Assembly (NCBI RefSeq): GCF_026151205.1 | Contig: NC_087079.1 | Location: forward strand, 4,173,230-4,237,229 | DNA: 64,000 nucleotides | Direction of reading: 5' to 3' | Source of the DNA: Bolinopsis microptera | Taxonomy: Eukaryota; Ctenophora; Tentaculata; Lobata; Bolinopsidae | Shown here: one piece after another, positions 6,001 through 52,050 of the stretch | Layout: each line of letters begins with the position of its first letter | How positions within the stretch are numbered: the first letter of the stretch is position 1 | The notes under the pieces: model-generated | The model's input: only the letters and a program-made list of their open reading frames with translations | The model's database searches: none | What the model was told of the DNA's origin: nothing | Translations under genes and position numbers: made by a program

Positions 6001-9000
6001 AATTAACGAAAATGGATTGTTATATTTAACTCTTTAAAGCATGGTACGAAACATTAAGGGATAATTTAGATGATTAACAAAAACAAAATTTAACTAAGTT
6101 CATAAAATTGTGTAATATTACGCAATTTTATTTAATAACAATACTTCATAATATGCGTGCTGATAATAAAACGTCAAAACAATCACACAACAGAAACATA
6201 CGGACAAACAGACGAACGAACAGTACTCACTCTTCGCATGTCAGCGGTTTAAAATTAACAGGGTCTTCCTTGTACTCCTAGCAGAGAGAATAGCAATTAG
6301 TATGAGCAGAACACAATCACGTGACATGCCACGTGCCAGACAATACCATATTAGGAAGTCACGTGTGATGCTGTAACAGCGAATAGGAAGCAAGTATGCA
6401 ACCACGTGACTCAAATTAACCATTCAGAATTTAGATTGCCCCGTCATGTGAGTACAATTTGGAGAATGCGGGTCACAGCACTGAAATTGCACTCATTACG
6501 AGATGAAATTTGGTAAATTGTTTTCGGAGCTGATTAGTGGCCAAGAGAGAGAGAGAGAGAGAGAGAGAGAAGAAATAGGAACGGAGAGGAGAGGATAGCA
6601 AGTACGTTACAAATAATAAAATCATCAGCTAACATTTCCAAACCACATTAAATAATCCCAATACGAGCAACATAATTTCCCAACACATTATCGTGGATAT
6701 CAATAATATTTATCTTTATGAATTATTGCTTTCTTATATATACTACGATTAGAGGTTGGTTAGTTAACATTAGCTCTAGCAACGATGATGAAAAAGCCCT
6801 TAGCTTCATAAAACAAAGTCCCCTGACATTCTCCAGCAAAAAGCATAATTCACTGATTTCTCTTTTAACTTTGTACACACGTATAGTGTATACCCAGCTA
6901 ATAAATTTATACTATTATAAACCAAATTAGCTTATCAACATTATTACATGATTATTCAATAATGAGTTCAATTAAATCAGCCTATCTTGTATTACATAGC
7001 TATTAGCTATAGGTCGGGTTTACTGTGCAATATATGATAATGTAATTAGTGAGATTAGAGGACGACCCCAGTTATCAAGGGCCAGGGGTTGGGTACATAC
7101 TCATCATTTGTAGTATACGTAACGGAACTAATTAAAAGTACAGGTTATATCATAATGTCTCCTAATCACGTAATCGGTTGTTAATCACGTGATTATATCA
7201 GTTGGTTGTATAATATCTACTTTAAGGGAGGATTATTATACCTGTAATGACGTGTACTGTACATTCTGTGTGAGTAAAGTTGGAAACTGCATTTTTACGA
7301 CGGTTTATTTTATGTAGACCTCAAAGTAAAATATTAAAGTGTCCGATTTGTTCTTTTATTCCCTTGAATATAAAATGCAATCTTGTCATTAAATGAAGGA
7401 GATAGTGAGAGATGTTTCTTAACACTAAAACTCCGTCACCCCGATTTGCTGTGTAAGTGACATATGAATGATAGCTTACCCACCATTATACTGAAAAGGC
7501 ACTAAACACACCCGCTCTCTTCGACAAGAAACTGGGCACTATTTTAAACGGTACCCATTAAAATACCAACTATTTAGCCTGATTCCCGCTGCCTATTAGG
7601 CGGTGATGGCGAGAACCGTTCACTTGTTCATTGTTAGGGCTGCTGGAGCTAAAGAGATTGGCTTGAAGCCTGCAGGGTGGAGCCACGACTGACAGGGAAG
7701 CGAGCATAATGAATTTCTGGACAGAAGAGGCGAAAATATAAATTAATAAAAGTTATAAATAAAAATATAAGTTAAGGAAAGTAACCATAGCAAGGGCAGG
7801 AGAGAAAGGAAAATGATAAAAACGGAGACTCAGAAAAGCAATAAAATTCGGGATTCAAGTTTTGTCAGTGGACAGACCACGTACTACCTGATGCCCGCAC
7901 ACCACCGGTACCACCCCTAGTCGCGCCTAATTTTTCGTAAAATTGAGGCTAACAATAATTTAATCAGTTAACCTCGCATATAATAACCGTTTCTAAAATT
8001 AAAATTTTTCATGGAAAAATTGGACATCCATCGGTTGAAGTTTTCATTTACAATAAATAATTACAGATAATAAATTTAAAAATTTAACTCGCGATATCTC
8101 CAGATCGGAACTTTTTTCCGGTGAGGACAAAAACGATTGAGAATTTAAACCGAGCTCTGCATTCTACAACATATCAAAAGTTCTTATAACTGACATCGGA
8201 CTTAATATGGAAACGGTTGACCATGCTGCCCAATAAATATAATTAAATTTTAAAAGGTTTGCTGCAAGAGTTGGTGCACTTGCTTATTATAACTAGAATG
8301 GAGGCGGGGCACCAGTACTTAGTAGTTAGTATTTAAACTGTATAAGAGATATAATAAGATAACCTTTACAGCTCACATATAGCAATAAATTGTGAAATGT
8401 GTTGAAATGCCTGTGCTAAGTTAGTTTGATTAACTAAAGAAACTCAATTCTGAATAATATGTTAAGTAAGTTGAATATGTAAACCTCTAGATTTTAACAA
8501 AAGTCTAGAAGTAGAAATATGTCATAATGGTACCAAAGTTCGACCGAAGGCAAAGGAATTTATGCAACACAAAATGTGGTAAATATTTTAGCATGGGACC
8601 GGAACCAGTCGTGGGTGCGGGTGTAGACTTCGAGGGAGAGCCCGGGACAGGTGGATCTCTGCTGACGATGCAACAAGAAGCCAACTAGACAAGAAGGTAG
8701 TAAATAATGTACGAAGGGACGATGTATGTTTAATTCACAAAGAGGGTATGCTGGGTATAAACCACGTGACTTGATCGTTATACCATGTGACAAATGAGAC
8801 CACACTCAACATGGTAACCTAGGAGCAAAGCAAGCCGCACACACTCACACTCTCATAGCCTCCGTATTAGTGGTGTATAAGCGTTACTTTGTCACGTTAC
8901 ATTATTTTGATTAGTCACGTGGTGCTGGAAATCTCTCTTATTGCCCGCACAACAGCACGTGCTGTGCGCGCAGGTGCACGTGCAATACACTCACCAAACC

Positions 9001-12000
9001 ACTGGCCAGATCCCCGTGACACGTGCACTGGTTTAATAATTGTATTAATTAAAATGCAGGTACATAATATAATCTTATACCAAGCTTGTGTATTAATTGA
9101 GAGCTAGGATATGGAGACCGGGGTATGTTTATTCCTCCTTCATTAAGGTATTCACGGTATGCGGCCGCGGGGAATGTATAAACCGACCAATCCAATCATG
9201 TTACACTTACAAGTCTTACATACAACCTTGTTTGAATATTAAAGAGTGGTTAGTGGTATATGGAACAGATGTGACCTTACTTTTTCTAGTATAGGTTGTG
9301 GTTGCACGTTTTTAGAATATGAGGTGGATAAAGGTGTGTTTCCACCACCGCCTGGCAACCAGTAACCCGGCAACCAGTAACTTCGGGTTATGGTTTGAAA
9401 TTTCAACAGGTTTTTACAATGTGGTACAGTGTTGACAAGGACATCGAAATAAAAAGTTATAAAAAACTAATAAAAATTTTATATTTCGGCCCAGGTAGTT
9501 TGAATGGTGAGCTATGAAATATAAAAACACGAAATAATAAGATTTGCTGATTTTCTGTTTCCGTTTTCCAGAAATAACCTGTCTGAAGGGCACATAATGT
9601 TACAATTATTGCACAAGAAAATTTTTACAGGCGATCTTAACTTTCTTAAGCTTATTCTTTTATCGCTCAGTTCAAACCCTAGATAAATCTCGCACATTAG
9701 TATTACAGCACATTCTCAACTTAAATATAATTCAACTTCAGTTTCACATTTCACGACCTCATCTTACGAGAACAAGACTAGTTGTTCAAGTCTTGTTCTC
9801 TAGACTAGACTAGTACTACTAGACTAGTACTACAAGACTAGTCCTTCTAGTCTTGTTCTTACCACTACTGTACTAATTTAAAAATATTTCTTCTAGATCA
9901 TTACATGACTCTGTAAGCTCACACACGATAACTAAATTGGCAAGCAAATCTTGCACTGTTTTATATCATAACAGGAGCATTTTATCACGTTACACATCTC
10001 TCCAAACCACGTGATCTCACAGTCACATGACCGTATAAGGATACAACGTGACGTCACATGACCAAATATGGTAACCACGTGACACGTTGGTGGGGCCACC
10101 TGACTGGCAAACTACCAAGATATATGTACAATAATTCATGTAGAATGAGCAGATTGTGTGCAGGGCAGGTGTGTGTAATATTAAGACGCAATGAAACTAA
10201 GTTTGTAATTAGTGATGACATTTTTATGATAACCCCGGTGACATTTTCTATTTTAAAACGCTCTCCTGACAGCCATCAAACAGATATTTTATAATAATAT
10301 ATGTTGTTAAATATGTGAGCTCACAATTATTATTCAAACAGAAAAGCGATATTTATTGATTTCGATACATAACAGCGATGAAAAAAGAGAGGGTAAAGAA
10401 CTGATCAAATTATGGAATACAATTAAACAAACGAAAACCAAGAGTTCAACCCTTATTAAGATGTTTTATATAATATGTACACTACACACTATACAGCACG
10501 CAAATTGAACAACTGCGGCAATAAACCCAGTCTTAATCAGACATTTCATGAGGAACAGGTGTAGATTTAAAAGTTATTTAGGAGTGGTTTAAGAATATAT
10601 TGACTGACCAAGCAGGACTAAAACGTGATTTTCAATAATGCTAAATATTTGGTATATAATAATGGGGGGGGGGGGGGGGGGGGGGGGTGTCATGTCCGTC
10701 TATGTCCGCCTATGTCCTGTCCTTTTTGGATTCTATGAGACAACGGACGTGTTTTTTGGGACATTGGCGGACACGGACGGACATTGGCGGACTCGGACGG
10801 ACATTGGCGGACTCGGACGGACATTGGCGGACTCGGACGGACATTGGCGGACTCGGACGGACATTGGCGGACTCAGACGGACATTGGCGGACCCGGACGG
10901 ACATTGGCGGACTTAGATGGACATTAGTGGACATTAGCGGACATTGGTGGACATTAGCGGACAAACATTTTGAGGACTGAAGAGTACTGAAGAGTACTGA
11001 AGAGTACTGAGGAGGATGGCTGAGAAGGATGGCTATGGAGGATGGCTGAGGAGGATGACTGAGGAGGATGACTGAGGAGGATGACTGAGAGGGAGGAGAA
11101 GGATCAGGAAGACCCAGGAGGAGGAGGAGGAGGAGGACCCAGAAGGAGGACCTAGGAGGAGGAGGAGAACTGAGAAGGATGACTGAGGAGGAGGAGGACT
11201 CAAGAGGAGGACTGAGGAGGACTGAGAAGGAGGAGGACTGAGGAGGATGGCTGAGGAGGATGACTGAGAGGGAGGAGGAGGAGGAAGAGGAGGAAGAGGA
11301 CTGAGGAGGAGGAGGAGGAGAAGGACTGAGGAGGAGAAGGAAGACCCAGGAGGAGGAGGACCCAGGAGGAGGAGGACCCAGGAGGAGGACCCAGGAGGAG
11401 GACCCAGGAAAAGGCCCCAGGAGGAGGAGGAGGACCCAGGAGGACTGAGGAGGAGGACTGACGATGACTGAGAAGGAGGAGGACTGAGGAGTACTGAGGA
11501 GGATGGCTGAGGAGGATGGCTGGGGAGGATGGCTGAGGAGGATGACTGAGGAGGATGACTGAGAGGGAGGAGGGGGAGGTCTCAGGAGGAGGACTCAGAA
11601 GGAGGAGGATCAGGAGGAGGACTCAGGAGGAGGACTCAGGAGAAGGACTTAGGAGAAATGAGAAGGAGGACTGAGGAGAACTGAGGAGGAGGAGGACTGA
11701 ATAGGAGGAGGAGAAGGAGGGGGACTGGGAGAGGACTGGGGAGGAGGAGGACTGATGAGAAGGATGAGGAGGAGGACCCAGGAGGAGGAGGACTGAGGAC
11801 CGAGGAGGAAGAGAAGGAGGATGAAGAGGAGGAGGAGGACCCAGGAGGAGGAGGACTGAGGAGGAGGACTGAGGAGGACTGAGGAGGACTGAGGAGGATG
11901 GCTGAGGAGGATGACTGAGAGGGAAGAGGAGGAGGAGGAGGAGGAGGAGGACTGAGGAGGACTGAGGAGGACTGAGAAGGAGGAGGAGGAGGAGGAGGAG

Positions 12001-15000
12001 GACTGAATAGGAGGAGGAGGAGGGGGACTGAGGAGGACTGAGGACTGAGGAGGAAGAGGAGGAGGATGAAGAGGAGGAGGAGGACCCAGGAGGAGGACCC
12101 AGGAGGAGGACTCAGGAGGAGGAGGACTGGGGAGGAGGAGGACTGTTGAGGACTGATGAGGAGGACTGAGGACAAGGAGGAGGAGTAGGAGGACTGAGAA
12201 GGGGAGGAGGAAGAGGACTGAGGAAGATCAGGAAGACCCAGGGGGAGGAGGAGGAAGAGTAGGAGGAGGAAGCATCTAAATGTTATTTCCATTTTTGTCC
12301 GTTTTTGTCCATTTTTGTCCGTTTTTGTCCGCTCTATTTTTTGTCCGTTTTGAAAATATAGGGTACCGAACGGACAAAAAACATGATCCCCCTATAACAG
12401 AAAAATTGAACATTTTATTTAGCAACTTAGGTGTCCATTAATGTCCGCCTATGTCCGCCTATGTCCGTCTATGTCCGCCTATGTCCGCCTATGTCCTGTC
12501 CTTTTTGGATTCTATGAGACAAGCGGACATAGACGGACGTGACACCCCCCCCCCCCCCCCAATAATGGAACAGATGAAACACGCAGCAAAGGTAGTAAAC
12601 TTCACGTGTAAATAGCACTACACTTACACGTGTAAGAGAGGTTATATAATAAGACTAAACCACCAGCTGCAGATATCTGATAAAGTCTACATTACAGGTT
12701 AATATAGGTGTGTACAGCTTAATTTAATATATTATCCGTGATATAAACATTATAATGTATATATATATATATATATATATTATATAAACACAGGTGATGT
12801 ATAGTTTGGTTATTATTATTAGGCGTGTACTGAGTGTGAGTGTGAGTGAGTGTGTGTGGTATAGTGGTTTAATTAAACGTATTGTGTGGTCTGATTTCCA
12901 TGTGTGTACCTGTGTACACTGTACATATATCACGTGGGGTTATTTATAGGCCGATTATATGAGGTTAGTATGAAGTGTAATGGAACACATTTAATACGTT
13001 ATAACACTGATAAACGTATAAAATACACTCACAGTGCAGTGAAGTAAAACTGAAGTGACAAGAAATAGTTCTGCATTCATTCTACCATTTTACCTCAACA
13101 AGTAGTGGGATTATCAACACGAGACTTAAAGCCTGGGGTTAAGCCACGTGATTGCTATATTTGGTCATGTTACTGTCATTTTGGTAGACTGTTGAAATGC
13201 TCTGTACATAGGTTTATCACAGTTGCCAGCAGACCGACTTGATGGCCTTTTAAAAACTAACTACAAAACAGGGAAAACTTTACTGTACGGTCTCCGGGAG
13301 GATAGTCTCGGGTGACGTCACTAGGACCAGTCACGTGACACTCCCTTGAGTTAGAATTACGCAGCAACACTGCTCACTAAATCCTACTTTACTAAGTTCA
13401 GCTTTACCAAGTCATGGGTTTCCTACTGATCAATGCTAAAACTACTGTCAACAACTGTTAATAATTCTCATGAGGTCGTTAGTTTTTCACAGCTCTTGTT
13501 TACAGTCTGGAAGTACTTATACAATGGGGATTACTAGAGTCAGATTGAACTCTAACTTTAGGCTTCAACAGTGATCTCACTGGTTATATTGAGTTTTAAC
13601 TTTAGAGAATCAGATATCTTCAAAACAGGATAAACCCCCTTCATTTTATGTCATAACTTAATATTATGAGTATTGGAGAAGGTCTACATTCTATGACCTA
13701 TGTCCCCGGGAAGTTTAGCAACTAAACCTTCCCGGAAAATGTTACAAAGTTTGACTTCAAGTAACAATAACTACGGTCAGAGGCCTCCGTTTGAAAATGC
13801 TACAGTTTTAACATCGCTCAGAAATATCACTTTGCACTAGGACCACATACATTAAGATAAAGAAGTAATTTGCCCGCTGACTTGAAACAGATATTAATCA
13901 CATATTGAGGGGTCCGACCATCCGCTCTACTCCTAATATACAATAATTGCAGTTTCACCATATAAAAGCACATTTAATCAGTGAATATTCCTATAACACA
14001 GCACATTTAATCAGTGAATATTCCTATAAGTAGAACATTTAATCAGTGAAACTAGACTTTCTTTCACAGAAGCACTACAACTGTTGGTCAGATGGATCTT
14101 CAAAGCCTCGCAACTTTTGGGATATTGTAAATTCTACTCTAGTGGTAAAGATAGAGATCCTTTTGAATCCTCACAAATTTTCAGGATATTGTGAACTGAC
14201 GACTGTGGGCAACATTGTTACATGTCAACCAGTGGGTTACTGAATGGAGTGAAGCTGGACAAGGACCTGTTAAAATGTTAACTCTCACCTCCTATCACCG
14301 TGTCAGTGTTATGACAACTTGATGGTCACTCGTAACATGGTGACCACTCAGACCAGTCACTGGTTACTAGTAAGTGGTCATGGAAACTAGTGATCAGTAA
14401 TAACTTCTGACAGGGTTGGGATAACATTTTCCTCGCAGTGTTTGGGAAGTTGGCAAATCTGTGATCTAACAGGGCCCACTCATAACTTAATATATGGAGA
14501 ACGCGAACGGTCGACTGTCATCCCCCTGCAGGGGGATGACAGTCGACCGTTCGCGTTCTCCATATATTAAGTTATGAGTGACTATGCAGATTAGCAGCAA
14601 GGGGTAACATTAGTTACCAACTTGGTAACCAAATTGGTAACTTGGTAACCAAATTGGTAACTTGGTAACCACCTTGGCCTTGGTAACTTGGTAACCATAC
14701 GCAGACAGCGACGGAGGAAGCACGTGAGCAGCTGTGGAAGATATGGAGTGACACTGACACAGTGATAACAGATGATTTCATATTCTAAGTCACGTGTCCT
14801 GTACAATAACCAATGTGAGACAAGTCACGTGGTCCAAAGAAACACCACGGGACCATATACGGTGATCACATGGTCAGTCAACATGTCTCTGCTGTATTTG
14901 GCAGGAGTGTTCCAGAAAAGGAAGGTAGAAATCGGATAAGTGTACTGAATGTCAGAGAGAGGGAGAGAGAGAGAGAGATGAGGTTTCAGTTACAGTGTAA

Positions 15001-18000
15001 CTAAGTGTGCACATTGTGTAACGTTATTGGAACACAAAGAACTGGACCGGGTGCAGTTTATATGCTAATTTGACACATCAGTTTGAAATTAGTGCTTTAG
15101 GAGGCAGTGTTAAAGTGTAAGTAACAGTTTTAGAACGCAACTGAGATATTGATAGAGGAAGCGAGAACTCGTACATTGTTAGAGAAGACGGGTAAGGAAG
15201 ACGTACATATTAAATTGAAGTAGTTAGAAAGGATATTGGAGAGCATTCGGGAATTATGAAAGTCTCCCATCGTCAAAAATACCGCCTTCTATCCAACGTC
15301 ATTAACATGATTGCAGAAGGAACAATCCTTATGTAATTTTGTGTGAAAGTTAAGAAACGTCACAAGACTGTTTTCTTAGAATTGGAGCAAATAAAAGAAG
15401 AGCTATTAAATAAACAGGTTAGGCTTATTCCTTAGATAAAGCTCACATTGCTATAACAATATTATACCATTATATCATTACAGTCTAGGTGTTCTTATCA
15501 AGTTAGCTAAGTTCAGATAAGGCAATAGTTCACCAAGGATATCAAATAACAATGGGCTGGTAACCGCGGTGATGATATTAATAATAATGATAATGATAAT
15601 ATTATTACGATGATATAATTATTAATACCAATATAGTGGTATGATATCTACCTTGTCTCGTATGATGAATGATCACTGTGCAGTGTAACTCACTGCAGCT
15701 GCACATTGCACACACACAGATATAATGCCCGACTACGCCCTCACTACGCCCTCACAATTACTACTCCCATATACTGATCAGAGTATTGAACATGGACACA
15801 ATGGCTTGTAATTGTGGATATTATATGGTGCTGTGAGTGCTGTGGTAGTATTAGTGATCTGTTGTTGTTGGATCACACACAACTTTTGTGTGCGCTCGTG
15901 CGTTGAGACATGATGGTGTACGATATTATGCGTGTTTCTATGAGATGAAAGTGTTGTACAGAAAAATGTGTGTTAAAAGAAATGAAATAAAGTATGTACA
16001 TCCCGCTCAAATTGATAAAAATATCAAACAAAAACAAAAATTAATTGTTATGATAGATATCGACTAACGAGATTCAGATGTAATCGAAGTGCGGGAGGAA
16101 ACATTGAAAAAGTTATACATCAACTATATAAAAGCACGGTCTTGTTAGAATGACAAATCATATAAACTACAAACAAGATATAAAGCACTTTAATCAGATC
16201 TGATAACAAGCAAATAGTTGGGCAACATAATCACTGCCACATATATCCGGGAGAGCAGTGAATAGCTGCACTATGCAACAATGTAGGGGATGGAAGATTA
16301 AATTACACAAATATCTCAAATTCTTTACACCATACACTAACATTCTGATTTAGTCCCAGGATCAGTAATTACCGCACCTACTACTCCGATATAGGAAGGA
16401 GAAGTTTTGAAGGGAAACAGAAACAAGATATAGAAGAAAATTTTATCGGTTGAACTATCGGGCGGATTATTCGTGCGCAGGATCATATTTCAAATTTCAT
16501 AGTTCTTCTCGGTTTTATTTCTGAGCGAGTGGCAAAACGGTTCATAATGCAATGAAGATTTTGAAGATTCCTGACAATTTATATATATTTTATATTGAGG
16601 TGTGAGAATAAGACGTAAAATTGATTTTTCTCAGATTCTGAAAATTTAGAAATTGACGAAGGTATGTTGCGAAACGTCGGCAATTTCGAAGTGCTCAGCG
16701 GAGAAAAAAGCTATCTCATTTGCTCTTACTTTAATGTGACCGAGGCAAATCGTCACAACTGCGCAACAACCCCAAATTGATAAATTTCTTTCAACAGAAT
16801 TGAAATATTTTGTCTAATTGTAGCAATTCGGCGAATAGGAATATTTTGATTTGTTAGAATTTAGTCACGGAAAGAGAATAGAGTATTGCAAAATGCGAAT
16901 CGTTGCTAAAATATGATATATCAGGGAATAGGCGACACAACAAGAAAAAGAGATTTAAAAATACAATCATAGAATTTAAAACGGCCTGCAGGAGAGAACA
17001 AGAATAAGTATAGAGAGCAGGGAATGTAGCCACTCTCAGAAGATAAGGTTCCTCAGAAGATAAGGTTCCTCTGATAAGAGGCCAAATGAAGTGTAACATG
17101 GGAGGATTGCGACAATGTGAGAATGTTACAGGTACTAATAACGTGCCTATGATCGGGTACATGGTACCAACGACTTGTGTCAAAGTAGCAAATGTAGCAG
17201 AGGAGGACGAATCAAGAGGAGGGGACGAGAGGAGGGCTGGAGGGGACGAGAGGAGGGGACGAGAGGAGGGGACGAGAGGAGGAGACGAGAGGAGGGGACG
17301 AGAGGAGGGGACGAGAAGAGGGGACGTCGGTTTTAGCGGATCGAAAATCAAAGATTTCCAAAAAACCATGACGTCTAGATGTTGGAATCACCACTGAGTC
17401 AATTGAAGGATCTCCAATCAATTATTATACCAGTCATTCAACCAGTCAATTGATTGAAGCAAATCATAAAAGTGTGACGAGAATATACTTGGAAGTAAGT
17501 AAACCCAACGTGTCATGAATGAAACTAGGTATAGTTGATTTAAGAGAGAGGGGAGAACGGAAGCTAGATAAATCAAGTTCTATTATCAGTACAGCACCGC
17601 TAATTGAATTGATAATTTGTCTTTGTGTTAATTGACTCCTCCAGAGTAGTAACCATTGTGACTGGCTGGAAGGATCATATTTGATTATACGGTATAATTA
17701 ACCTTGCTCACTGAGTTGTTAGAGCCACCAATTAGTTGAGATAATTACCTATATTTAATCGAGTTTAAATATTATGGGAGGTTTATTATTCACTCTCCGT
17801 AATTATCTGTAATTGGTTGAATAACTCGAGCTATTTAGTTATTGGAGTGGTTTAAGTTTGAGTAATACACGGATATGGTATAGGTACTAGGTTATTATTA
17901 ACGATTGCGTGGTTTTAATTTTACGCTGATGACAGATTTTACTGGTGAGAAACTAATATATTGATAAATTATTCTTAATGTTATAATAAGTGATTTATTC

Positions 18001-21000
18001 TACCGTTACGAGAACTCGTCACTCGATCACTAAATTACCAAGATAGTTCGAGTGAAGACTGACGGGGAACGGGTCCTTTAACTTAAGGATTTTTAACATT
18101 AACGCTGTATAACCCACATGTAAATATCAAAAGAAGAAATGAGTCAGCAACGACCAGCAACAAAACGACATAGATCGTAACGAGTTAATCAGCATTTAAC
18201 ACAAAATATTAACTCTATTAAAGCAACGAGAAAACCAACCAATAAAAATATCTCACTCTATTAAATTACGTTCAGCATAAAAAAGATGATTTTCTGAATC
18301 CTCACTACATTGAACAATCTATCGGATTATTTACATGACCAGTGCATTTTCCAGTTAAAAGTGGTGGAATATGGTGTGATGGTACCGGCAATCCACACTC
18401 TACAGCCAACCCACAAGTGGTGACAAAGTTCAGGTCGTGTTTCAGGAGACTGTGAAGGTGATGACTGGTAGCAAATTAGAACATGATGTTAGCTATCACG
18501 TGATTTACAAGCGCTCCACACGATCCGAAGTACCATGTGCTCCTTTAACTCTCATCACGTAATAAACAAATGCCAACTACTCTAGACACAGTGCCCAGCC
18601 AACCACACGGATTAGTAGACTGTGGACTTAGAGGCCAATTACAAGTTTGGGCAGTTTCGAAGAACATCTCAGATTTCAGTCCAATTATACAGCAAGAACC
18701 CACAAAACATTAACTCACACCCAAAAAACTTGAGATTAAAATGTTACTGAACACACCTTAAGTTTGAGATATATAAGCAATATGAATATCTCAACATCTC
18801 GTATTGATAAACATTATCAACATGTTTAATAAGGCACCATAACATTATTAAATTCAGATATTTTATTGTTTTATTTGCAGTGACTTGTCACCGACTGACA
18901 TGGTCACCACAATAGAAAATATTAGAGCCAATATAAAGATTGCGCACTTGTCCCTGGATAAGTTTATTGTCACGTGCCACTCCAAGTAAGGTCATAACAC
19001 TCCTCAATGAATACATGTACCATATCTTAAAGCCGCTATGATATTAAATGAACTCTCCTTTAGATTGAAACACCGTACAAATGGTGGACATGAACGGTAG
19101 CATTTTAATTGAAAACGGTTGAGTACAGGAACAAATAGCTTACAAGCGACCGGGCTGCGCATAATGCGTCTAGCCATGATAACTGTCGGGGAAGCTGCTA
19201 TCTCAGCAGACATTGAACATGCATTAAAAACTGGGCTATGAACCAAATACACATGAACAGCTGGGATAGTGGGCCGGTGAACAATGCTGTGTTCATTCTG
19301 CGCTCACATCTCAGCTCTTTTTTAATACATGAAATTCAGTGCTGGCTGGTGTAATCCATGGAAACTAAACTCAGTGAATGATAAATGAAAGATGAATTAA
19401 TGGTAAATATGAACACAGATAGTGAGAGTTACGGAGGCAGGCCATGGTAACTATGGAAACAGATAGTGGTAACTATGAAAACAGATAGTGGCAACTATGA
19501 AAACAGACAGTGGCAACTATGAAAGTATGAAACCATATAGTGGTAACTATGAAAACGATTACGGGAAACTATGAAAACAGATAGTGGTAACTACTAAAAC
19601 AGATAATGATAATTATGAAACAGGTAGTGGTAAATACTTAATATGAAGATGTAGAGAGTGGGGATTATGGCCTGCAATTCATAGAGACAGAACGGCAATC
19701 GTGGAAACATAGTACAAGTGGAGTTAACTAGTGGTAACAAATAAAACAAATGGTGATAGCCTTGGAAACAGGCTGTGACACTATGGCAACAGGTAGTGGT
19801 ATTCATAGAAACAGAGCCGTAATCGACGAAACAAATCGCGAGTGGTACAACCATGGAAACAGGTAGTGGTAATCATGGAAACAGAGTGGTAACCATGAAA
19901 ACAGATAGGGTTTTTTCACTCACCGTGAGACAGAGTTGAGTGGGGACTGAGCCGGTGTATAGAGTTACGAGATACATTTTATCTGATATTATCTGATTGA
20001 GATGAGCTGATCCAGGAAACTGTGATGATACGATCTGATCCAGGTTACTGAGAAGATCTGATCTGGTCTGCTTTGTAAGAGGAGACTGGTCTGAATACTA
20101 CAAAATATAGGACGAGCTAAGCTATCTGAAGGCGGAAATTTTGAAAAGAGCAAGTACTACAACTGCTACTAAAATCTAAACGTGTAGTTACTGTTAGTTA
20201 AAGCGCACTACAACAACAAGACACAGCGCTCACTCGCGAAATATGCGCCAAATAAGGCCTGATCTCTCATTAGTTATGTTAATCAACGAAATTCGTCCTC
20301 ACGTGACGAAACTCAGCGCATGTTATTGGCCGGGGAAATGTCACGTGCAAAGTTTGCTTTGCTGTGATTGGTGGAGGAGCTTGTTGGGCATATTGGATTG
20401 GCTATCATGTGTGTGCTGAGGAGAGGGAGCTGATTGGATCAGTCAGCGTTGGTTAAACTACCCTTCTTTTAGGAATAATAGCTCTGATTGGTCACAGCGT
20501 GTCCCACGGACACTTCTCACTGGTCGGACTAAACACGTGACAATTGCTTGGCCGTCATTGGTCGGCTGGTATCACGTGATGACAACCTGTTGAAATGTGC
20601 GAAGTCGAAACCCTAATTTCTTACTGACAGGCGAGAGGACAATCCTAGCGTACTGGGTTTTACAACAAGACTAGTATTTACCCCACTATATAGTAGTCCA
20701 CTTGTTATAACAAGAATGTCAGGACACGAGAGAGAAACGACACTTGGATTCAGTGCGATAGAAAATTACAAGAACGCCCTGAAGCCAAAAACTCCCGAGA
20801 CCTCGAGAGCCAAATAAAGTTCGCTATCAAGGACCAGAAATTATGTGACACAATTAGTAGCAAACGTAATCTCCACTGCATAATATTGCTATTATTTGTA
20901 GCCACGTGAGTGGACACGTGACAGTTCATAACGAATGGAGGCACAGTACTTTGTATATGTCAGGTCTAATCTCGGTGAGACTTGTGGCACTCCATATAAG

Positions 21001-24000
21001 GTAATGCTCTCACCCCACGTGACACACCATATAAGGTAAAAACAGTCAGATGAGAGCTCCTCCTGATCACGTCTAGACTCACTATGTGTACAATTAAAAG
21101 ACCGGAGGCGCAACGAGGTTTCATCAGGGTAGCAGCGCAGCCGGCAGAAGGAAGGGGCCGGGTGATTGTTAGTGAGGCCCCGTGTTATATTGTATTGTTA
21201 TCATCAATATTATACCAAGTGTGTTATAATGTGGCCCCATAATCCTAGTCTATTATTATAGCTTGTAGTAGTATTAGTAGTATAATAATAATAATAGGAC
21301 TAGTAACCTAGTAATCAGGGAGCATTGTGAGATTCTATTGGGGAGGTGCCCGCTATAAATAGTAATACTGTAAACTTATTGTTCGTCATAGGTATAATTA
21401 TAGCTACTTTGCCAGAAACTCTTTAAAATATCAGATGTATGGCTCCTTAATCTAGGTTATAATAAAATCAATTTAGCTTACAAGAAACTCCAAAATTGCG
21501 CTGATTTATAATTACGTTATTTTTTACTATAAAATGTAACTGAGTTCTTAGATGTTGTATCATAAAGTGCACATGCAAATAAGACGAGATAAAATAATTC
21601 ATGCTCGAGCTGAAGTTTTAAAATTTAGAAGTGAGTTTCTGGTGCCAGCATGATAGTGCTCGGACCGGTCGTAGAATCGCATCACGCCACGTATAAAATC
21701 AAATTTAACGCTGGCCGACAAAAATCTGTAGCGTGGTACTAAGGGAATATTGGAGATTTGATATAAATCCCAAGTGGAGCCCGCGCACCGCACGCTGTGC
21801 CGGTGAAACTTAAAGATGGTCTGCTGAGCTGAGAGCAAGCCATAGAGTCCAAAATCCAGCTTGACATTGACCCAGTGAGTGCAGCTAACTTTGACCGTTG
21901 TGACTTGGTGAGTGTTGGCAACACACAGAGCTCGAATAGTGGCCTACAAGTCACGAAGTCCGTGGAGGATAAAACACTCGTTAACCGATGACAGGAATGC
22001 GAGGTGTTTACTCCAACTAGCGGACAGGCGTCCTCCACGCTAATTTCACCGAGGGAGTCACGTGACTCAGCTAATAAGTCACGTGACAAACCGTATATGG
22101 GCATGTCGTCATGAGTTGTGAGGAGACAGTGATATTGTAACAGGTCATTACAGAAAGTGGCACAGTTGGTAAAGGGGACATTCCAGCATCGGCCTATTAA
22201 CAGATAATCCTGTTTTCTGCTTTTATATGGAGAGACCGTATTGTGCCAATTTTTGCGCGGCTTTCATCATTGCAATTGATCAATGGAAATATCTCTTATT
22301 AAATGCAGCCTTCTAAAAATAAGTCTCATATTGATTACGAGTTTGTCAGCACTAGCTGAATCCTGCAGAAATGGAGAGTATGACGTCAGGAAAACAAAGC
22401 TGTGGTTTCATTAAGTCAGGTTCACCTCACCAAACACAGATACTATCGTAAAGAGAACAATACCTGTTCTAAATGTTGTGCTCTTAAAAATGTAATACAT
22501 TCGAAATATTCGCATATTTTCGATAAAAACGGACATATTTTGAACAAAAATGGGAATGTCTTCAAGCTTCATCCATCATCCTATATTAGTATTATATCAC
22601 TCACAATACCATTATTGAACAGTGCGACGTAACTTTTGTCCACCTTTCGACACAACCAAATTTAGAATATCACGCGTGAGTTTTAGGCCAAATTTAGAAT
22701 ATAACGCGTGACTTTTCCTACTTTGTACAAAAATACAAAAACCTTACAATTACTGTAGAGCATCATTCAACCTGTGCCTTATAACCTAATAATTTGATTT
22801 GCTATTATCAATGAAGCAAATACCAGAGCTTCCACCAGAACTATGCTTTGTGATCAAACACCTCTGTATATAACATAGCAGGAGAAAGAGTGTAAAGGAA
22901 GAATGTTGAGTTACGGAATACGAGTTCAACACTCAAAACTAATGATCTTTTTTATACGTAAACTGTATACAGTAAGGACTGGCTCTAGCTAAGGAGGGGG
23001 ACTGGGGAGGGGCTCAGAATGCAAAACTTATAGATTACACTGTAGAATGTAGATGGCATGGAAATACGTGGGCAGATTATCGTAACTATATTAGTGTCAA
23101 AATAGTTGATTGAATATTATTATAATTATGCGCAATGCAGTTCCTTTGTTTGGATTTTGAGGCATTCAAAAATAAGAAATGATCAGAATGTTACGGAAAG
23201 AAAGCCAAAACGTGTGATCACGATACGATATTTTAAGATGCGATTTAAATTGTTAGACGTATAGATCATGCCTTAAATGGGGGGGGGGGGGGGGGGGGGG
23301 GGAGTAATCATATACTGATCTGAAATGTATCTGTATTTGCTAATTAGAGGGTTGCCCCCCCCCCCTCCCCCTTTAATTACATTCGATTTGTATTTAAATG
23401 CTTTAAAATAGAAGAAAACATATTGCATAAATTATTTTACCTATGGTATTATTTTACATATACCATATTCGGAGCTTCCAATCAACATTTCATGTTAAAA
23501 GGGTACGTTAAAAGGGTACGTTAAAAGGGTACGTTAAAAGGGTACGTTAAAAGGGTACGTTAAAAGGGTACTTAAAATTCTTTAAATTTTTCAAACATTC
23601 TTCATTGCCATAGCATACTTTCATGGCAAAGATCACAGCAGAAAACGTTAAATACAATTGTAGTAAAATTCAGATATATAAATCTAGATAAAATGCTTAT
23701 AAAACCTGTTAAAAGAGTTGAGATTTAAAGTTGTTAGCTTTGTTTATTGACTTTATTCCTACATGCCAACATTTTCTTCTACAGAGCAAAGTCTTTTTGG
23801 AATTTGGAATCATCGACATATTTGTCGTGGTGTAAAATTCGCCGACGTTCAAGACATTTTAACTAAGCAGGCGAAAATACCGATACATTTATAATTATGG
23901 TAAGAAAAGATGCAGGAGAGATTTTCCAGTTCTTAAAAAGCAAATTCCTAGAATTATCGAATATCAATGATTAAGCGGCTACTTGATAAAATCTTATCAC

Positions 24001-27000
24001 TTCAAGGAATTGTACTTCTGCTCACTTATTTTTATCTGTTATCAAGTAACCAAGTTTTAAATGTGGCGCAATCTCTTCACTTAAAATACATTTCATGAAT
24101 TTTAACGTAGTGTCACAAGATCAAGAAAGTACATATGCATATATTATAATCTTCATCGAATTATCAAAAACGTTTAAATTTGCCTCATCATTCATACTTT
24201 AACTCATAAATCTGTTTAACCTTAAGATAAGGGAGGCCGAGGGTTCCACTTTGTTTAAACAATTGGGTAAAGAGATACGATGAGGTCTAATTCAACCATG
24301 TGCTGAGATAAGAAGCTTCAGTACAGAGCTACTATACTGCTATACTATCTGGTTTTCTTGAATGATGAGGTAGAGAAGCACTACAATCACAGTTTGCTCA
24401 GTAAGGCTTCTACTTCTAGTAACACATATCAGAAGTATATGGGGTACAATATCTTCCTTATCAGTACGTAATATAACACCTGTACATCAGACGTAGTGTA
24501 CAGCGCCGTGATAACTTAACCATATAAGGTCATATGCCGCGTCATGTATTGCCCAAATATGGTCATATCCGGAATATCAGACTTCAGATGACAATCTCCC
24601 CCTACACTCGCTAACACTAGTGTGCTTTGTACAGGTCAGATAGGACAAAGTATAGGCGCTAAAGATAGGCACACGTCAACGAGTCAACAAGTTGGCAGCA
24701 AGAGAGTGGTCAGTATGGTGTTTACAATGAGTGTTGTTGACAGGACCTACTGTGCGGGTCTGGAGTTGTGCAGAGCGCGGCGCGCCTGCCACATGATCAT
24801 GAAATGGAGTAAGCGCAGCGCTTTTGACAGATCATCATATGAAATGCAGCAAGCGCTGCAGCAAGTGCTGCATCAAGCGCTTTTGTCACCTAAAATGCAT
24901 AAGTGCAGTAGCAAGCACAGCGCTTCTACAACCTCAAACACACTGCAGCAAGCGCTGCAATTTTTTCACTTCACAGTCTACAATGCCAAACATTTTCAAG
25001 AAATATAATGCAAAGTAATTTCATATCAACTCTACTGTACCATCACACTAAACAGGGACTGTGGGATACTGATCACATCACCAACAGCTAATGTATCTAA
25101 ACAGTAAACAAACGGGTACCAGCAATAATGTTTAATTGATAAGTACTCAGAAACGAGTCATTTTAAAAGGGCTTGAAACTCAAGAAATTGAAGTTAGATA
25201 ATTTTTAGACTGTAAATTCCTTTTCATCAGCCAAGTTAGGAAGTACAGTGGCTCTGCTGAATGAAGATTATATTTACAACTTAGCGTGTTGGCGTTCAGA
25301 TGATCTGCTAATGGTGTGACTCTACTCTACTCTACTCTGCAACTCAATGATTTCTCTCCAAAATAATAGATAATCTAGTCGGGTGGTGTGCAGGTATAAT
25401 TACAAAACAAAAGAACACAGCTGCTCATGACAACAAAAGTTAGGTTATCACTACATGGTAAAATATCATAACTATATACGAAACAAAAGGAGAGAGAGAG
25501 AGAGAAGAGTACAACGTCCATGCTACTATCTACTCCTCCCTGCTTAACACGTGACAAGCCCAAATAAGGTCCCTCTCCACGTCACGTTATGCCCAAATAC
25601 GGTCATAACCACTCCTGGTTGCCATGTTAGCCGGGTAATTACAGACTGTACTCCATCTCGTACTACGAACAGTAAACAGTACCGTCTGACTTCATAGCTG
25701 ACTCTAATGCTGCTAACTACGCACTGTGACAGACCACCTTCTCTCCTCTCTACTCCTCCTCTGGTGTACTAGGTTTAACAAGGGTTATTAGCTAGTTTAT
25801 CTCGTTAATTCAGGATAATCCTTGATTACAGTTAATTTTCTTCTATTGTGGGTAGGTCTGTATTGTTGGTTACAGGATTGTTAATTGCCCGCTTTAAATA
25901 AACTCTTGTTTAGACATTTAAGTTAAATGGGGAGTTAAGATGGTTAATTAAAGGAAATGCAGGTAAGAGGGGATCGTTGTCTCGTGTAACACAGCGACGT
26001 TTTGGTTTGACCATATATGGAGATAAATGTCATGGGATATGCCCAAATAAGGAGATAGTTTAAGATGTTCGGCCCAAATGTGGATAAAAGAGTCGCGACA
26101 TCAGTAAGTCAGAACAAATCAACAGTGGACAGGGAATTTAAAACGAGCAGCTCAATCTGTCCTGTGAGTTCATTGGATGGTCCACTTAAGCTGTAATTGA
26201 AGCAAGTTCAGAAATCTGCCTGGATTTTCCAAAGGTCCGTATTCACTTTGATTCATGGCCCGCCGGCCGCGAACGCCAAGTGAAATCAACGGAAATATGC
26301 CGAAACTACAATCTGAACCAGCATGAGCACTGAGCAGTCTTAACAAAAAGGCAGACTAGAACCAAAATAATATTTACTGAGAGTCTTACTAAGCATGTTT
26401 CCTAATATCGTGCTTTCTATTATTATATAATGACTAATGAGCATGATGTGTATTTGTATCGTTAGTTACTGGCAGTGGACACAGCACTATCAGTATCAAT
26501 ATATATACTGACTAAACAGTACCAAGATAACAACAAACCGACTGTGCCAACTACTTTCTATGAATCCAGGACATGCTGTAGGAGTAAGAGCTGCAAATCG
26601 TTTCATTACTTGTCAAGATGACCAAGTACACGACCAAATATAGAAAAACTGGGTGCATAACATCGCGTAAACGCCCGATAACACAGACTAACTGTTTTAC
26701 GAGTAATGATAATCAGATGTCATGCGAGGGAAAGCAATCACTGAGACCTCGAACAACACAAAGCTATACTAGCCGTGGTCCCAACGACCACACTGCCCGG
26801 TCATTGGTGGAAACCTTGGTCACGTGTAGCTGGAGCCTGGATCCCGGCTCCCGATTGGAGGAGAGGTGAGAGTGAGGGGGAGAAAAGGATTATAAGGTGT
26901 GTTGAATATATGCAGCTAGGCGGGGAGATAAGATAGTACTAGCTTAGTGTATTGTTAGGAGGAAGATTCTACAAAACCGTGTGTAACCCTGACCTATCTG

Positions 27001-30000
27001 GTATTAGCATAGTTAGTGGATCTGGCCGAGCCGTAAAATGGCGCATTACAGATCCTATCTTACTATATATAAAGCGAGACGATATATATGGTTCCGTGCC
27101 ATTTTACTGACACCATGGCATCAACTTTAACGCGACTTTCCGCAAAAACCGTAAAAGATATACAACTGAAACTTTTTTGACTGGGTCAAATGCTTTAATG
27201 GCCTTCAAATCAGCATGAAAAAGTAAAAAATTGGCCAAGAAATAAGAATTTTAGTGCCCAAAATTTGGACTCCCAAGTGGTGTCAAAAACGCAAATTAAA
27301 TAGGTAATAATTATTTTAGTCTCTCTAGTCTTGACACCACTTTAGGGTAGACGGGTTCCTGCTAGTTAGTATAGTGGCGCAGTAATCAGTATAGTGGCGC
27401 AACTTTGCCAAAAAAGGAGAATTTAAGCTAAGTGGGTACTTCAGTTACACCAAATGATTAATGAGGCTTTATCGTTTATTTCTTTTCATGCTACGTAAAG
27501 AAAAGAAAATGATATGCAGACAGATTCTTTAGAAGCAGGCATAATTGGTACACTCATATTATACAAGACAAGCTTTTAAAGTGAAGCCTGAGGAAAGCTA
27601 AATATTATTAAGCGGTTTTATGCAATATAATGGCCTTTTATGTCATACTAAAATGCTTTATAGTTAGTAAGGTTAATTCAAATTTAGCCAGAAAGCACCT
27701 TAGAATAGCTGAATATATAACTTATATTGTATATCCAATTAATTTATTCAATAAATATTGAGTCAAGTTACCGTAATTCATCAATTATCAAATCGTCAAA
27801 GATACATATTTAAAGATTTAAGTATGAACACTAATTCGCCATAAAAAAATCAACTGAAGAGGGTCAAGAAAGAAGCTGGTCAATATGGTTATTGGTTACT
27901 ATGGTTACTATGGTAAATGGTTACTATATTATGCATATGGTTACTATGGTATGTGTCCCACAATGGGACACTATTGTAATTCAAAGCTATCTCTGGGAAA
28001 TCCGTAATTCACCTAATTTAAGAAGAGTGAGCAGGCACCAACTGCATTTAAAAGGTAATATCTAACATAAAAGTGAAACAAAAGGTCGATATTTCTGTGT
28101 AAGCTAAAAAAGCAGGTTGCTCTAAATTTAAGAGAGGCTAAAATGGGTGCTAAGAATTGGGGAGAGAAGTAGGGAGGTCGGAACAAGCAACACACAACTC
28201 TCACAGCTACACAACTCCCCTGCTCTATACAAAGTTAATGTCATTATAGCTAGCGACTCCTGACGGATGTTCATATCTGCTCTCCCCATTGGTTGTTTTT
28301 TAGTCACGCGACACGTGTTCAGCTCTCTGATTGGCTCGGAGACCCGGGTCCCGGTTTGACTGACCGAGTATACTAGGGTACCTGTTCAGTTTCACACTGC
28401 CCCTCGTCCAATGTGAAATGTCAAGTGAAGAGGAGATGGTCATCAACCAATACCAGCAGAGGTAGTTTGATGAAAACAAATGGAAAATTAAATTGAGTGT
28501 CACGTGAGTGTCACGTGATCAGCGGTTTGTGACGAGTTGTGTGTGCTGTGTGGCTTGTCCACAGTGTACAATGTGAATTTGGACAACTTTAAGAGAGAAT
28601 GAGACCGACGCTGTAATTCTCGTCATTACACGTATTGTTAGAAAATGTATTCTGGTTGTTTCCTCGGAATACTTATCATTGTTCCACAGTATTATCTACA
28701 TTTTTAATACAAGGCTACATCACCTGTGCTCCTGCGAAATCTTTTAAGACTTAATATTAAACACAGCAAACAAAATAGATCAAGATGTGTTATTTTAATC
28801 GTTTAAAAGCCGCGCCTGTTCACAATCATACTGACATGTCAACAGAAAATACAAGATAATAAACTAAATTTAGCGTGTAAGTGTTATCAAATATCATAAT
28901 CTTAGAAGTCAATTCCCTGAATTCTTCTTCGGTGGTCCAATAAATAATAATCACGTGTTTTTTAAACCAATCAATGACACTGATACAATTAGAGGATGTG
29001 AACCCTTCGCAGTGAAGGCATTGAGAAAAGTTGAGTCAGACAACATACAATTCTTTGCAAATATGATTCATATCAGTTTGTTCGCAAAATGAAAGTGGAT
29101 GTGCATTTAGAATTGCTCTTGTGCAAGCAACAAGGTTACCAGGTAAAGGATTTTTCGACCTATGACAACGAATCGAGTGCTTAAGACCTTAAGTGCTGAG
29201 GATATTCTCTTTGTTAAGTTTAGCCAAGTTACTCATTTCAAAGTTATCATACTCGTCTTTCTCCCGGTTATATCCGCCCAGTTATATATCATTAGAAGAC
29301 TGTTGCAGACCCAAGAGGACCGGAGTCTCAAAGGCTAGATGGCATTAAATATCTGCATACCAAGCAACTATTGCGCAGCAAACGTAGCCTATTAACTTTT
29401 CTTCCTCTTACATACTTCATTATCTACAAAGGTATGAAGAACACATCTTGTAGAACGGCTAGGGCTTCTCTACTAATAATATAATTATTACTAAATCAGA
29501 AGTAAAGCGGATCTTGTCTTGTGACCAGACTTTGGACTACAAATTTCAAACTGATTAAAAAGTGCACCCTGACCTAGAGCAAATTACAAGCAAGACACTG
29601 TGTCCCTGGTATGAGAGGCAGGCTGAATTATAACCTGACATTTAGTATCAGCTTACTCTGGAGGAGGAGGTACTGGGTAATTAGAGCAACAATAAAGTTC
29701 AGTAGAGCCCATTATCCACCCCACACTAGGAGGAGGAGGAGGAGGAGGAGGGGGGAGGAGGAGGGGGCTGCTTTGTAAACAGCTGTGCAGTCCCCTCTGT
29801 CATTACACACACACAAACAGTTGTAATAACCTCACTGCAATGAGTAATAACCCGGCTGCAACTGCTGCACAAAACTAATTTCACTCTTCAATAGACTACC
29901 TGGGCCTTCGAGCATTGTTCCAATATTCCTGTAAGAGAGCTGACAGCCACTCACAAGCCAGAACACGGGACGAGGACCAATCAGAGAGCGTTATTGTGGT

Positions 30001-30550
30001 CATGTGGGGCTAGTCAATGACCTGGACTCTTTACCAGGGAGCAGCAGGTGTGTATATGGTAAATAGCTAACATTCGACCTGGGCCCTACCAAGCAAAGCT
30101 TAGAATAACAATGGCAAACGACTAATTCATAATGCGCAGCAAAATGTGACGTATTTTACCCGAACTGGGTTTTACTGTATACTTGAAGGAAGAACACAGC
30201 TGGTTGAAGTGTTGTAGATAACAACGTGGGTGCAGCAAGAGAGAGGGGGAGATATTATACACACCGACCAGGTACAGCTCAGTGCCCTTACACTGATCAT
30301 ATTATATACAGCACTGTAATCTCCCTTCACAAGACACCGCCTCCATTGGCTCTCACCTTTCATGTGATACCAATACTGTGATTTGATTGGCTATCAGGGT
30401 TCATGTGACACGAATACTGTGATTTGATTGGCTCGAGTTTATCACATGGTGTGAATACTGTGATTTGATTGGATGGTAATTATCAGATCGCCCGCAATCG
30501 TATCTTACACGGGTTCATTTAATCAAGAGACTGTTCCTTATGAATAATAA

Positions 30551-30596
<46 letters not shown>

Positions 30597-33500
30597 CATT
30601 ATGCAGATTAGAAGCCGAGCAGTCGTAAACTTGGATCACGGGACAATAAATGCAAATGAAGATGAGGATGACGTGGAAATATTTGAGGAAATATCGTTGG
30701 AAGCATCAAGGGAAATATCACGCAAAAGACTACTTAATGAGATATTGTAGTATTGTAGTAATGATAAATGTATCTATGTTTTAACAAGTGAAAGGCTTAG
30801 TTGAGGTCCACAAACTTCAGATTGTGCATTGGTGACTTAAACTCGTTTTTTTTTGTCAGAAGATTGCAATGTCTAGACTTTATCACCATAATTAATTACT
30901 TACTGCAGACACAGTGTCCATTTGAAATAAGGGTAATGGAGATACAGATGAAGTATTATTTATGTTAAATACACTGTTATTGTTAAGCTCTTCAACATGA
31001 CATGAAGTAGCAACAGGTGTGTATACGGTAAATAACCCATAACTAAATATTAAATGCTTGGTTCGTACGATTAGTCTGCTGGTTAATTGCCCCGGTGCAT
31101 AAATTTGCCAATGGGGTAAAATTGTCTGTCAGCCAACAAAAGCACAATAAAAACAGCACAGAACACAGAACACAACAAGACCCTGGATCAGGTAAACAAT
31201 TCTACAAGAGCTCACATTCCACGTCTATATATAATAATACCAGCGGACCTGTGTAGTGTAGAGAACATAGAGCTTGTTGCAGATCTCACTAGACTCTAGC
31301 TGTAAAGCTCACGTTTCTATGTGCAAACACAGAGAGAGAGAGAGTATAGAGCACTTTAACAAGATTAGGGGGGTTATATATTGAGTTACACTATGTAATA
31401 TAGTTTGGAGATGCTCAGTCGCTGAACTGTAAAGCACAGTATGATAAGAAACAATAGCAAGATGAATTCCAACACAGGGACTTTGCTTGTGGGTGTGTGT
31501 CAGGACCGGGAGAAATGTAAACTACATTCCGGTTCAACAATGAGTATTATCATCAGAGTTAAGACTCTTGTGAAATGAAAGAGAGTTCAGATGTTTTCTA
31601 ATTTCAGATTTAAATAAACGAAAGAAAACGTTCTAATCAGAGTCACACATTTTAGGAAACGATTGTATGTGATAAAATAACGATTGTATGTGACAAAATT
31701 CGAACTGTGGATGATCATTATTATATAATCCATTCTTGCCACGCATTTAATGAAATAAACTTTTACTCTTGATTGTCTTTTAATGCTATTATTGATATGT
31801 TGCCCACAATGAATGAAAAACAATTATAGCTTCGTTTAGTGGTGTTCACTGTTCCTTAACAAAAAGTTTCTCCAAAACATTTCACATCTAATGCGCAGAG
31901 CACAAATAATCTAATATAAAATGATAAAAACACAACAAAGAAGACGTATGGTGAAGAATACAAAACACAAGTATCTACCGTCAGCAACAACACACACACA
32001 CACACACGCACACACACAGACAACTCGTGACAACAGATAAAACAGTAAACAGTACAGATCATTGTGAGGAGGAGAGGGGAATACTGAACAGGTCACACAG
32101 TGGCCTTCTCCCCGAGTGTGGACTGCTACAATATATCATCGTCATTATACCTAGTGGGTTTTAACCCACACACACCCTGAACATTGTTTGTGGCCGGGTT
32201 CACGTGCTATCTACTTTTTGTATTTCTGTTGATGAGAATTTCCCGTGTTTGGATGGGTTGGGATATGGATAAAGCGAGCTCAATTGGGCTAGAATTTGTT
32301 TTTCTGTGAAAGTTGGGCGTGGTTTGATATGTAACTGATGCTGCATTGTTTTTACCACGGATAAGATGAAATAAATTGTATTTCCCCATCTTAGAACAAT
32401 TTACTGGATGGGTGAAATCTTGAGTTTATTGAAACCATGATGTCGAAAGAATCAATACAGCTATATATTAACCATAGATTTCACAGAAAGCTTCTCCTAT
32501 CACTAGATTGGAGTAAGAAAATGTAACTTAGGTAGGCGGGGAGTCTCATGTCGGCACTTTCAGTTACAATATCTATCTAAAATGTCTCCACTTTCAGATA
32601 AATTAGAAGATCACGACTTCCGCGTGTGCAACCAGCAACCACCAGGATAACTAGTCATTATCCGTGCTTCTGAACACGGATCATGTACATTTTGCTGTGC
32701 TTAATCGATTGACAGGACAGTAAATACCTAATTAGGGTAATTATCAATAGGGCAATTAACCGTCACCATGTTTGAAGTGAACTCCAATTGACAAATGTAC
32801 TCTTATCAATACGGGTATTGGAACTGGTAGGTGGCAAATTATTGGACACCTTATGATTAACTCCACTTTTCTAGTCAATTCCCGCCAATATTCAGTTGAT
32901 CCACACAATCTCGTATTTTGAAAGGCACCGAAAAGCGTTGAAAAACAACAAAAGGTGACAAAATTTGCTTATATACCCTATATAGTGTTGACATCTAAGT
33001 AGACTATAAACACCAAATCAAGCCAATTCCACCATATTTATGTAAAAAATCGTTTCACATAATATAATATGCAATTTACATTTTACTTGCAATCTGTGAA
33101 AGATCATCGGTACGTTCAGTAACAAACTGATTTGTAACCAAAGATTTGAGCTCCAAATCTTTCATCTCACTGTTTTGGTTGATAGAAGAAGATTTAGTTA
33201 AAAGAAGGAAAAAGGAATACACAGCTACACTTCTCAAGAGTTTGCAGGATAATTATTTTAGGCACGTGATTTCACACGTGGAGCAAACAGTATATTTTCA
33301 CTTTAATAATTATAATATGCCTCTGCTCTCTTATATAGGAGTGGCACGAGTCTTTTACATCTTTGATTTTCGAGGCAAGAGTTAATTTGAGTCACATGAT
33401 TTCATCAACACAATCTGAGCAAAATGGAATTTGAAATAAGATTTAAGCAAATATCTAGCTGTGCAGTAGATTTTGCATTTTAAAATGAAAGTCAAAATGA

Positions 33501-51995: not shown

Positions 51996-52050
51996 TCTCT
52001 TCTTGTAGGAAGAGTGCTCATTTGTAAAACATGGTAATCTCAGTTCATTT

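Follow-up and report, generated by a model that had tools for sequence, protein, structure and literature searches.

Clusters of binding sites, whether homotypic or heterotypic, gather many sites of the same kind into short modules within non-coding DNA. The locus described here does likewise, although its array spans 27 kb, mixes E-box and CArG motifs and is made up of putative sites. The palindrome CACGTG (the E-box in what follows) belongs to the class of sites that bHLH-zipper dimers bind, and the CArG box is the site of SRF. Composite control regions with SRF/CArG sites and E-boxes are familiar from muscle genes, where most E-boxes follow the myogenic CANNTG pattern; the two motifs are adjacent there as in our intron, whereas the intron has CACGTG, often in the form CACGTGAC, at a tight distance of 12–14 bp between centres. 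The nematode 21U-RNA (Ruby-motif) loci likewise repeat a short motif many times over in non-coding DNA, and the intron resembles them in this respect, but its motif differs and no common sequence stands beside the motifs. Within the same phylum, the intronic enhancers and promoter–enhancer loops of Mnemiopsis leidyi share the intronic location, although the anchor motif common to those loops is GC-rich and no E-box/CArG code is described in the accessible part of the source (PMC12221973). The same work, from 2025, put names to two looping proteins (PMC12221973). An array visible in the sequence, with a spacing rule, would open a direct way to study how factors cooperate in the ctenophore lineage. 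Intronic binding-site clusters are already known, and the literature searched (titles and abstract openings, with most subscription journals outside it) yielded no ctenophore E-box/CArG spacing code; we regard the array as a good lead, not as a demonstrated function.

The window, that is, the whole stretch of 64,000 nucleotides of Bolinopsis microptera analysed here (C8:4173230-4237229, GC 38.7%), contains on the minus strand an intron spanning 6279..33540, with GT-AG borders established from exon translations and splice signals; the 27-kb CNOT4 intron delimited in the earlier note was correct to within about one base. The donor GT lies at 33540, directly after the exon ending ...GLCPACRR, and reads GTGAGT; the acceptor AG precedes the downstream exon at ~6278, which begins EYKEDPVNFKPL / EYKEDPVNFKPLTCEE after TAG. 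The RING exon, also on the minus strand, is found at ~34.6 kb, its second part, ICRFCWHRIRTNDNGLCPACRR, ends at 33541, and it matches zf-RING_4 in Pfam (E 1.1e-7). We take the gene to be CNOT4 from this match and from its similarity to the human protein. A ctenophore origin of the genome is in keeping with two of its single-exon glutamate receptors, which match the Mnemiopsis iGluR ML032222a in the PDB (as the best hit in one of two tests); STING, tried as a phylum marker, gave no result, and the 14 control genomes showed no ring either.

CACGTG occurs 40 times in the intron (1.47/kb) and four times in the remaining 36.7 kb of the window, the very figures that had been estimated by eye, although this contrast exaggerates because the rest of the window lies below the genome mean (4 against 16.2 expected). 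Over the whole genome (264.65 Mb, 232 contigs) there are 116,727 copies, or 0.441/kb, a count that takes in tandem arrays, compared with 46,866 of the reversed word; at this rate 12.0 would be expected in the intron (Poisson, 1.7e-10). After masking of tandem repeats 37 are left, against ~5.3–5.4 expected (2.8e-19) from a 200-kb control sample of 20 stretches of 10 kb, taken at regular places on eight contigs and amounting to 0.08% of the genome; the masked densities are 1.53/kb in the intron and 0.22/kb in the sample (0.24/kb unmasked). A first-order Markov simulation of the intron minus its GA-rich array gave a mean of 3.8 and a maximum of 9 in 200 runs, compared with the 40 observed. With no motif chosen beforehand, CACGTG is the most over-represented hexamer of the masked intron relative to the sample, and CACGTGAC the top octamer (21 vs 1.8 occurrences). 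As for the flanks, at least one side reads CACGTGA in 33 of the 40 E-boxes and CACGTGAC in 21; three E-boxes have the form GTCACGTGAC. Divided into three pieces of 10 kb, the last two overlapping by 2.7 kb, the masked intron has 19, 12, and 7 copies; the 20 sample pieces hold 0 to 6 masked and 0 to 11 unmasked, and since one of them has 11 before masking, other CACGTG-rich places exist in the genome.

Perfect CArG boxes follow the same trend, with 14 in the intron (0.51/kb) against 3.1 expected at the genome rate of 0.11/kb (4.7e-6), 12 against 3.8 expected from the sample after tandem-repeat masking (5.5e-4), and 13 against a simulated mean of 1.9 and maximum of 7; two of the 14 (12559 and 23271) abut homopolymer C or G runs. 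The enrichment claimed earlier therefore stands, but the nine boxes then reported become 14. Counted genome-wide with simulated controls, both CACGTG and CArG are above the genome level. The packing with CCAAT that had also been described did not survive the recount, with 59 CCAAT/ATTGG in the masked intron vs 50.3 expected (p 0.12), and we rejected this motif as an intron-wide feature. Nine ATTGG fall in a single minisatellite (10759-10952), and there is one local knot of seven on the same strand within 237 bp (20325-20561). With the minisatellite copies omitted, coupling between E-boxes and CCAAT was not significant, as 7, 9, and 12 E-boxes lie within 20, 40, and 60 bp of one, vs 3.7, 6.4, and 8.8 expected.

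Motif abundance alone proves no function, because E-boxes elsewhere in the genome often lie in repeats or tandem arrays. TCACGTGAC is ~11 times as frequent genome-wide as its control (14,719+15,258 vs 1,426+1,311), partly in tandem arrays and in one repeat family (L028, L032, L011), and tandem arrays whose periods are unrelated (10, 17, 18, 19, and 41 bp) have grown from CACGTG seeds, so that E-box minisatellites arise often here. The E-boxes of the intron might accordingly be what is left of a dispersed family, either of transposons or of minisatellites, in which TCACGTGAC is frequent. We judge this very unlikely, since in a whole-genome DNA search with four pieces of the intron, covering 35 of the 40 E-boxes (all except 18497, 18971, 32201, 33263, and 33275) and scoring in two of the searches 40 of 155 and 40 of 2332 candidates, none of the 35 fell in a genomic repeat match. 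The non-self matches in the tested pieces lie at 7860-7997, 8035-8201, 9769-9859 (which matches itself inverted), 12720-12787, 14477-14580 (a self-matching palindrome), 14607-14704, 21265-21313, and 27036-27376. When the 200-kb sample, the window and the C1 stretches were pooled into a small database, just two of the 40 intron sites, which match each other, had another copy there across the E-box, compared with 23 of 67 sites on C1 (Fisher, 3e-4), the latter figure being one that favours a repeat origin for E-boxes in general. The flanks (30 bp on each side, 54 positions per pair) are no more alike around E-boxes than at random places, with identities of 0.293 (762 pairs) and 0.294 (777 pairs), which is how the proposed alignment of the motif neighbourhoods to a common repeat ancestor came out. 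The option of a dispersed repeat carrying the sites is largely excluded for these 35.

A neutral local bias, with short motifs multiplied through slippage during the replication of an old intron free of selection, appears to us extremely improbable. The intron is rich in minisatellites, and at 10022-10083 a unit of 31 bp that includes E-box-like and CArG-like sites is present twice, as slippage would have it, but the excess of CACGTG survives tandem-repeat masking (37 vs 5.3), the spacers between sites are mostly unlike, and the products of CpG decay show no excess. The decay forms CACATG/CATGTG number 18 beside the 40 CACGTG of the intron and 145 beside 48 in the sample, which fits sites that are maintained, young or unmethylated.

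The sites are far from evenly spread (Table 1). No fewer than 24 of the 40 E-boxes have a neighbouring E-box at 50 bp or less, where random placement gives a mean of 5.4 and none of 3000 placements reached as many, and a perfect CArG box lies within 60 bp of 10 of the 40 (2.1 by chance). The 17 distances between E-boxes of up to 64 bp (11, 12, 12, 12, 21, 21, 24, 30, 35, 39, 40, 42, 42, 43, 43, 61, and 64 bp) favour a period of 10–10.5 bp (p 0.003 against uniform distances), the circular statistic, computed for periods 8 to 15, peaking at 10.0 (0.62) and 10.5 (0.59), and seven E-boxes (6360, 10076, 13145, 18971, 21016, 22080, and 25548) have a CArG box with at most one mismatch whose centre is 12–14 bp from their own, for 0.54 expected, both this distance window and the helical test having been picked after inspection of the data. 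The spacer letters within these pairs are mostly unlike. Four of the pairs (13145, 22080, 21016, and 25548) had been noticed before and their places hold, although the "same order" then attributed to them merely means that the CArG box lies on one side of the E-box, because both motifs are palindromic or nearly so. On one side of nine of the 61 CArG-like boxes in the intron there is a [GT]CAT flank (binomial, 7e-7).

Table 1. Putative modules and single sites in the CNOT4 intron (window coordinates; spacings in bp).
Position	Composition	Remark
6318..6408	four CACGTG (6318, 6330, 6360, 6403) and CArG CCATATTAGG (6346)	~40 bp from splice acceptor
7186..7191	lone CACGTG	
8763..8768	lone CACGTG	
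8916..9025	four CACGTG (8916, 8956, 8977, 9020), spacings 40, 21, 43	
10008..10081	two CACGTG (10008, 10076), CArG 10062, near-CArG 10031	partly within the duplicated 31-bp unit (10022-10083); 10053-10081 matches 13145-13173 in inverted orientation (86%)
12603..12632	E-box pair, spacing 24	
12931..12936	lone CACGTG	
13145..13164	composite CACGTG-N4-CTATATTTGG	
13332..13337	CACGTG inside GTCACGTGAC	
14721..14831	three CACGTG (14721, 14791, 14826) and one CCAAT (14810)	
18497..18502	lone CACGTG	outside genome-wide repeat search
18971..18991	composite CACGTG-N5-CCAAGTAAGG, then TCAT	outside genome-wide repeat search
20248..20578	CArG 20248, CACGTG 20300, 20342, 20534, 20573, seven ATTGG (20325-20561)	densest module; single copy
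20903..21036	E-box pair (20903, 20915; spacing 12) and CArG-E-box-CArG (20992, 21016, 21027)	single copy
22059..22100	two GTCACGTGAC palindromes 21 bp apart and near-CArG CCGTATATGG	single copy
24520..24562	CArG pair, spacing 33	TCATAT after each
25548..25602	composite CACGTG-N6-CCAAATAAGG and near-CArG at 25593	
26011..26052	CArG pair, spacing 32	
26803..26858	CACGTG (26821) flanked by ATTGG at 26803 and 26854	
28288..28517	CACGTG 28312 flanked by ATTGG 28288, 28330; E-box pair 28501/28512 (spacing 11)	
28937..28971	CACGTG (28952) flanked by CCAAT at 28937 and 28967	
32201..32206	lone CACGTG	outside genome-wide repeat search
33263..33280	E-box pair, spacing 12	~260 bp inside donor end; outside genome-wide repeat search

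The pairing of E-box and CArG box is strong in the intron, and elsewhere in the genome a slight tendency is hinted at. In the 200-kb sample one of 48 E-boxes has a CArG box at 12–14 bp (0.16 expected per distance, ~0.5 for the three). On C1, where the set comprises 67 E-boxes in 45 stretches, all the listed sites from 13 to 208 kb, there are three, vs 0.68 expected; one of these is inside a repeat and the other two have 25 bp in common. Three stretches chosen for a CArG box beside an E-box (L034, L035, and L036) were excluded from all counts. Few E-box/CArG neighbours occur among the C1 positions listed in the genome-wide motif searches. Outside the window, CACGTGA[TG]GCCC[AG]TATAAGG is present at C1:174966, C1:179186, C1:524051 (reverse strand), and C2:1008760, and the C1 copies, with 20–25 bp in common, may be a short repeat. 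The CArG box followed by KCAT is in large excess genome-wide (2598+2699 vs 112+125 for the control); we rejected this as a regulatory signal, many of the 100 positions listed being palindromes of ATGCCC or ATGACC type. Several ATGCCC-W6-GGGCAT palindromes among those 100 are paired 640–750 bp apart (e.g., C1:2049992 and 2050737), and such pairs probably mark the two termini of mobile elements of one family, which carries a CArG box.

We lean towards the view that the intron is an array of putative intronic enhancer modules, perhaps a dozen or more cis-regulatory modules in number. Enhancers appear, from the sequence, the best supported of the three options raised in the earlier note (the others being many small transcription units and a dispersed repeat), though not demonstrated: the clustering, the spacing, the mostly single-copy DNA, the lack of excess CpG decay, and the intronic place all speak for them, and their function is what we infer. 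In such modules bHLH-zipper dimers would bind CACGTG, and MiT/TFE factors, which like a GT flank on the 5' side, are possible candidates. The USF type would be the most likely, because the same 5' GT flank favours USF over MYC-MAX, according to the part of the source available (PMC8431614). An SRF-type MADS factor would sit beside the bHLH-zipper dimer on the same face of the helix; the genome contains three matches to the MADS domain (SRF-TF) at two loci, on C5 and C12. The modules may act on CNOT4 or on a neighbouring gene. A tentative and rather doubtful extension of this proposal is a distinct enhancer code of ctenophores: CArG boxes and E-boxes of the USF/MiT type (often CACGTGAC) would be set at a fixed 12–14 bp between centres, and long introns such as this one would serve as hubs.

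The loop enhancers of Mnemiopsis leidyi are mainly intronic (69%), in the portion of the study at hand (PMC12221973). The same animal has 4,261 loops, mostly between promoters and enhancers, and one could suppose on these grounds that the array serves chromatin architecture, as loop anchors or a tether hub, and not transcription factor input; it seems most unlikely to us, as the Mnemiopsis anchor motif is GC-rich, has two CpGs and is bound by the C2H2 proteins CTEP1/2, and the available part of the source names no E-box or CArG box (PMC12221973).

The main rival to the enhancer array is an internal promoter at 20.25–20.58 kb. According to it, the motifs would be promoter elements, and one or more internal promoters, likeliest at 20.2–20.6 kb, would produce either a CNOT4 transcript that lacks the RING or a non-coding RNA nested in the intron. 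The module there does look like a promoter on the CNOT4 strand, with four E-boxes, one CArG box and seven ATTGG, all of them CCAAT on the minus strand, in 331 bp, a promoter-like CCAAT/E-box combination. Two intron ORFs, of 174 and 177 aa, also exceed most simulations (a length of 174 was reached in one of 40), being longer than chance usually gives, and may be coding, although the 177-aa one crosses the minisatellite 17215-17326. We nevertheless hold an internal promoter to be unlikely, as CCAAT is absent from most modules, no common sequence is found beside the E-boxes, and the intron contains no recognisable gene, as had been stated from the letters alone: it yields neither a tRNA nor an Rfam family at gathering score, and the 12 longest of its 72 ORFs of at least 60 aa (counted after exclusion of those overlapping the low-complexity array 10700-12560) match no Pfam family above the curated cut-off, the single match below it having an E of 0.017. 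A nested protein gene was rejected on the same Pfam result for these 12 ORFs. Small transcription units analogous to 21U-RNA loci find no support either, with no Rfam or tRNA match and a likeness of the flanks at chance level, pairwise identity revealing no common sequence beyond chance within 30 bp of the E-boxes.

Several other features of the window deserve mention. Inside the intron, 14477-14580 is a perfect 104-bp palindrome of two 52-bp arms with no spacer, for which the sole other match found is its own reverse strand; it may represent a foldback of recent origin or else an error of assembly. A 1.2-kb purine-rich minisatellite of GAGGACTGAGGAG-like units with a period of 13–16 occupies 11002-12270 and is bordered by inverted GGACAT/TGTCCG arrays and by G or C runs. 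The segment 27036-27376 belongs to a high-copy repeat of ~310 bp found on C1 to C11 (40 of 2332 candidates scored), probably active recently because most of the listed matches are 94–99% identical. Outside the intron there is an element at 402-930 with 161-bp inverted arms (94%), probably a foldback/MITE; among the seven CArG boxes of the window that lie outside the intron, those at 492 and 831 are mirror-image copies within it. A long open frame on the minus strand (42034-45144) has three PAN domains, collagen-like KDGSDG repeats and an N-terminal LPMO_10 match below cut-off (E 0.013), and possibly encodes a secreted LPMO-like protein. It is accompanied by a pentraxin/laminin-G-like open frame on the plus strand (46335-47249) and by a non-LTR retrotransposon-like open frame on the minus strand (48750-52049) with endonuclease and reverse transcriptase domains.
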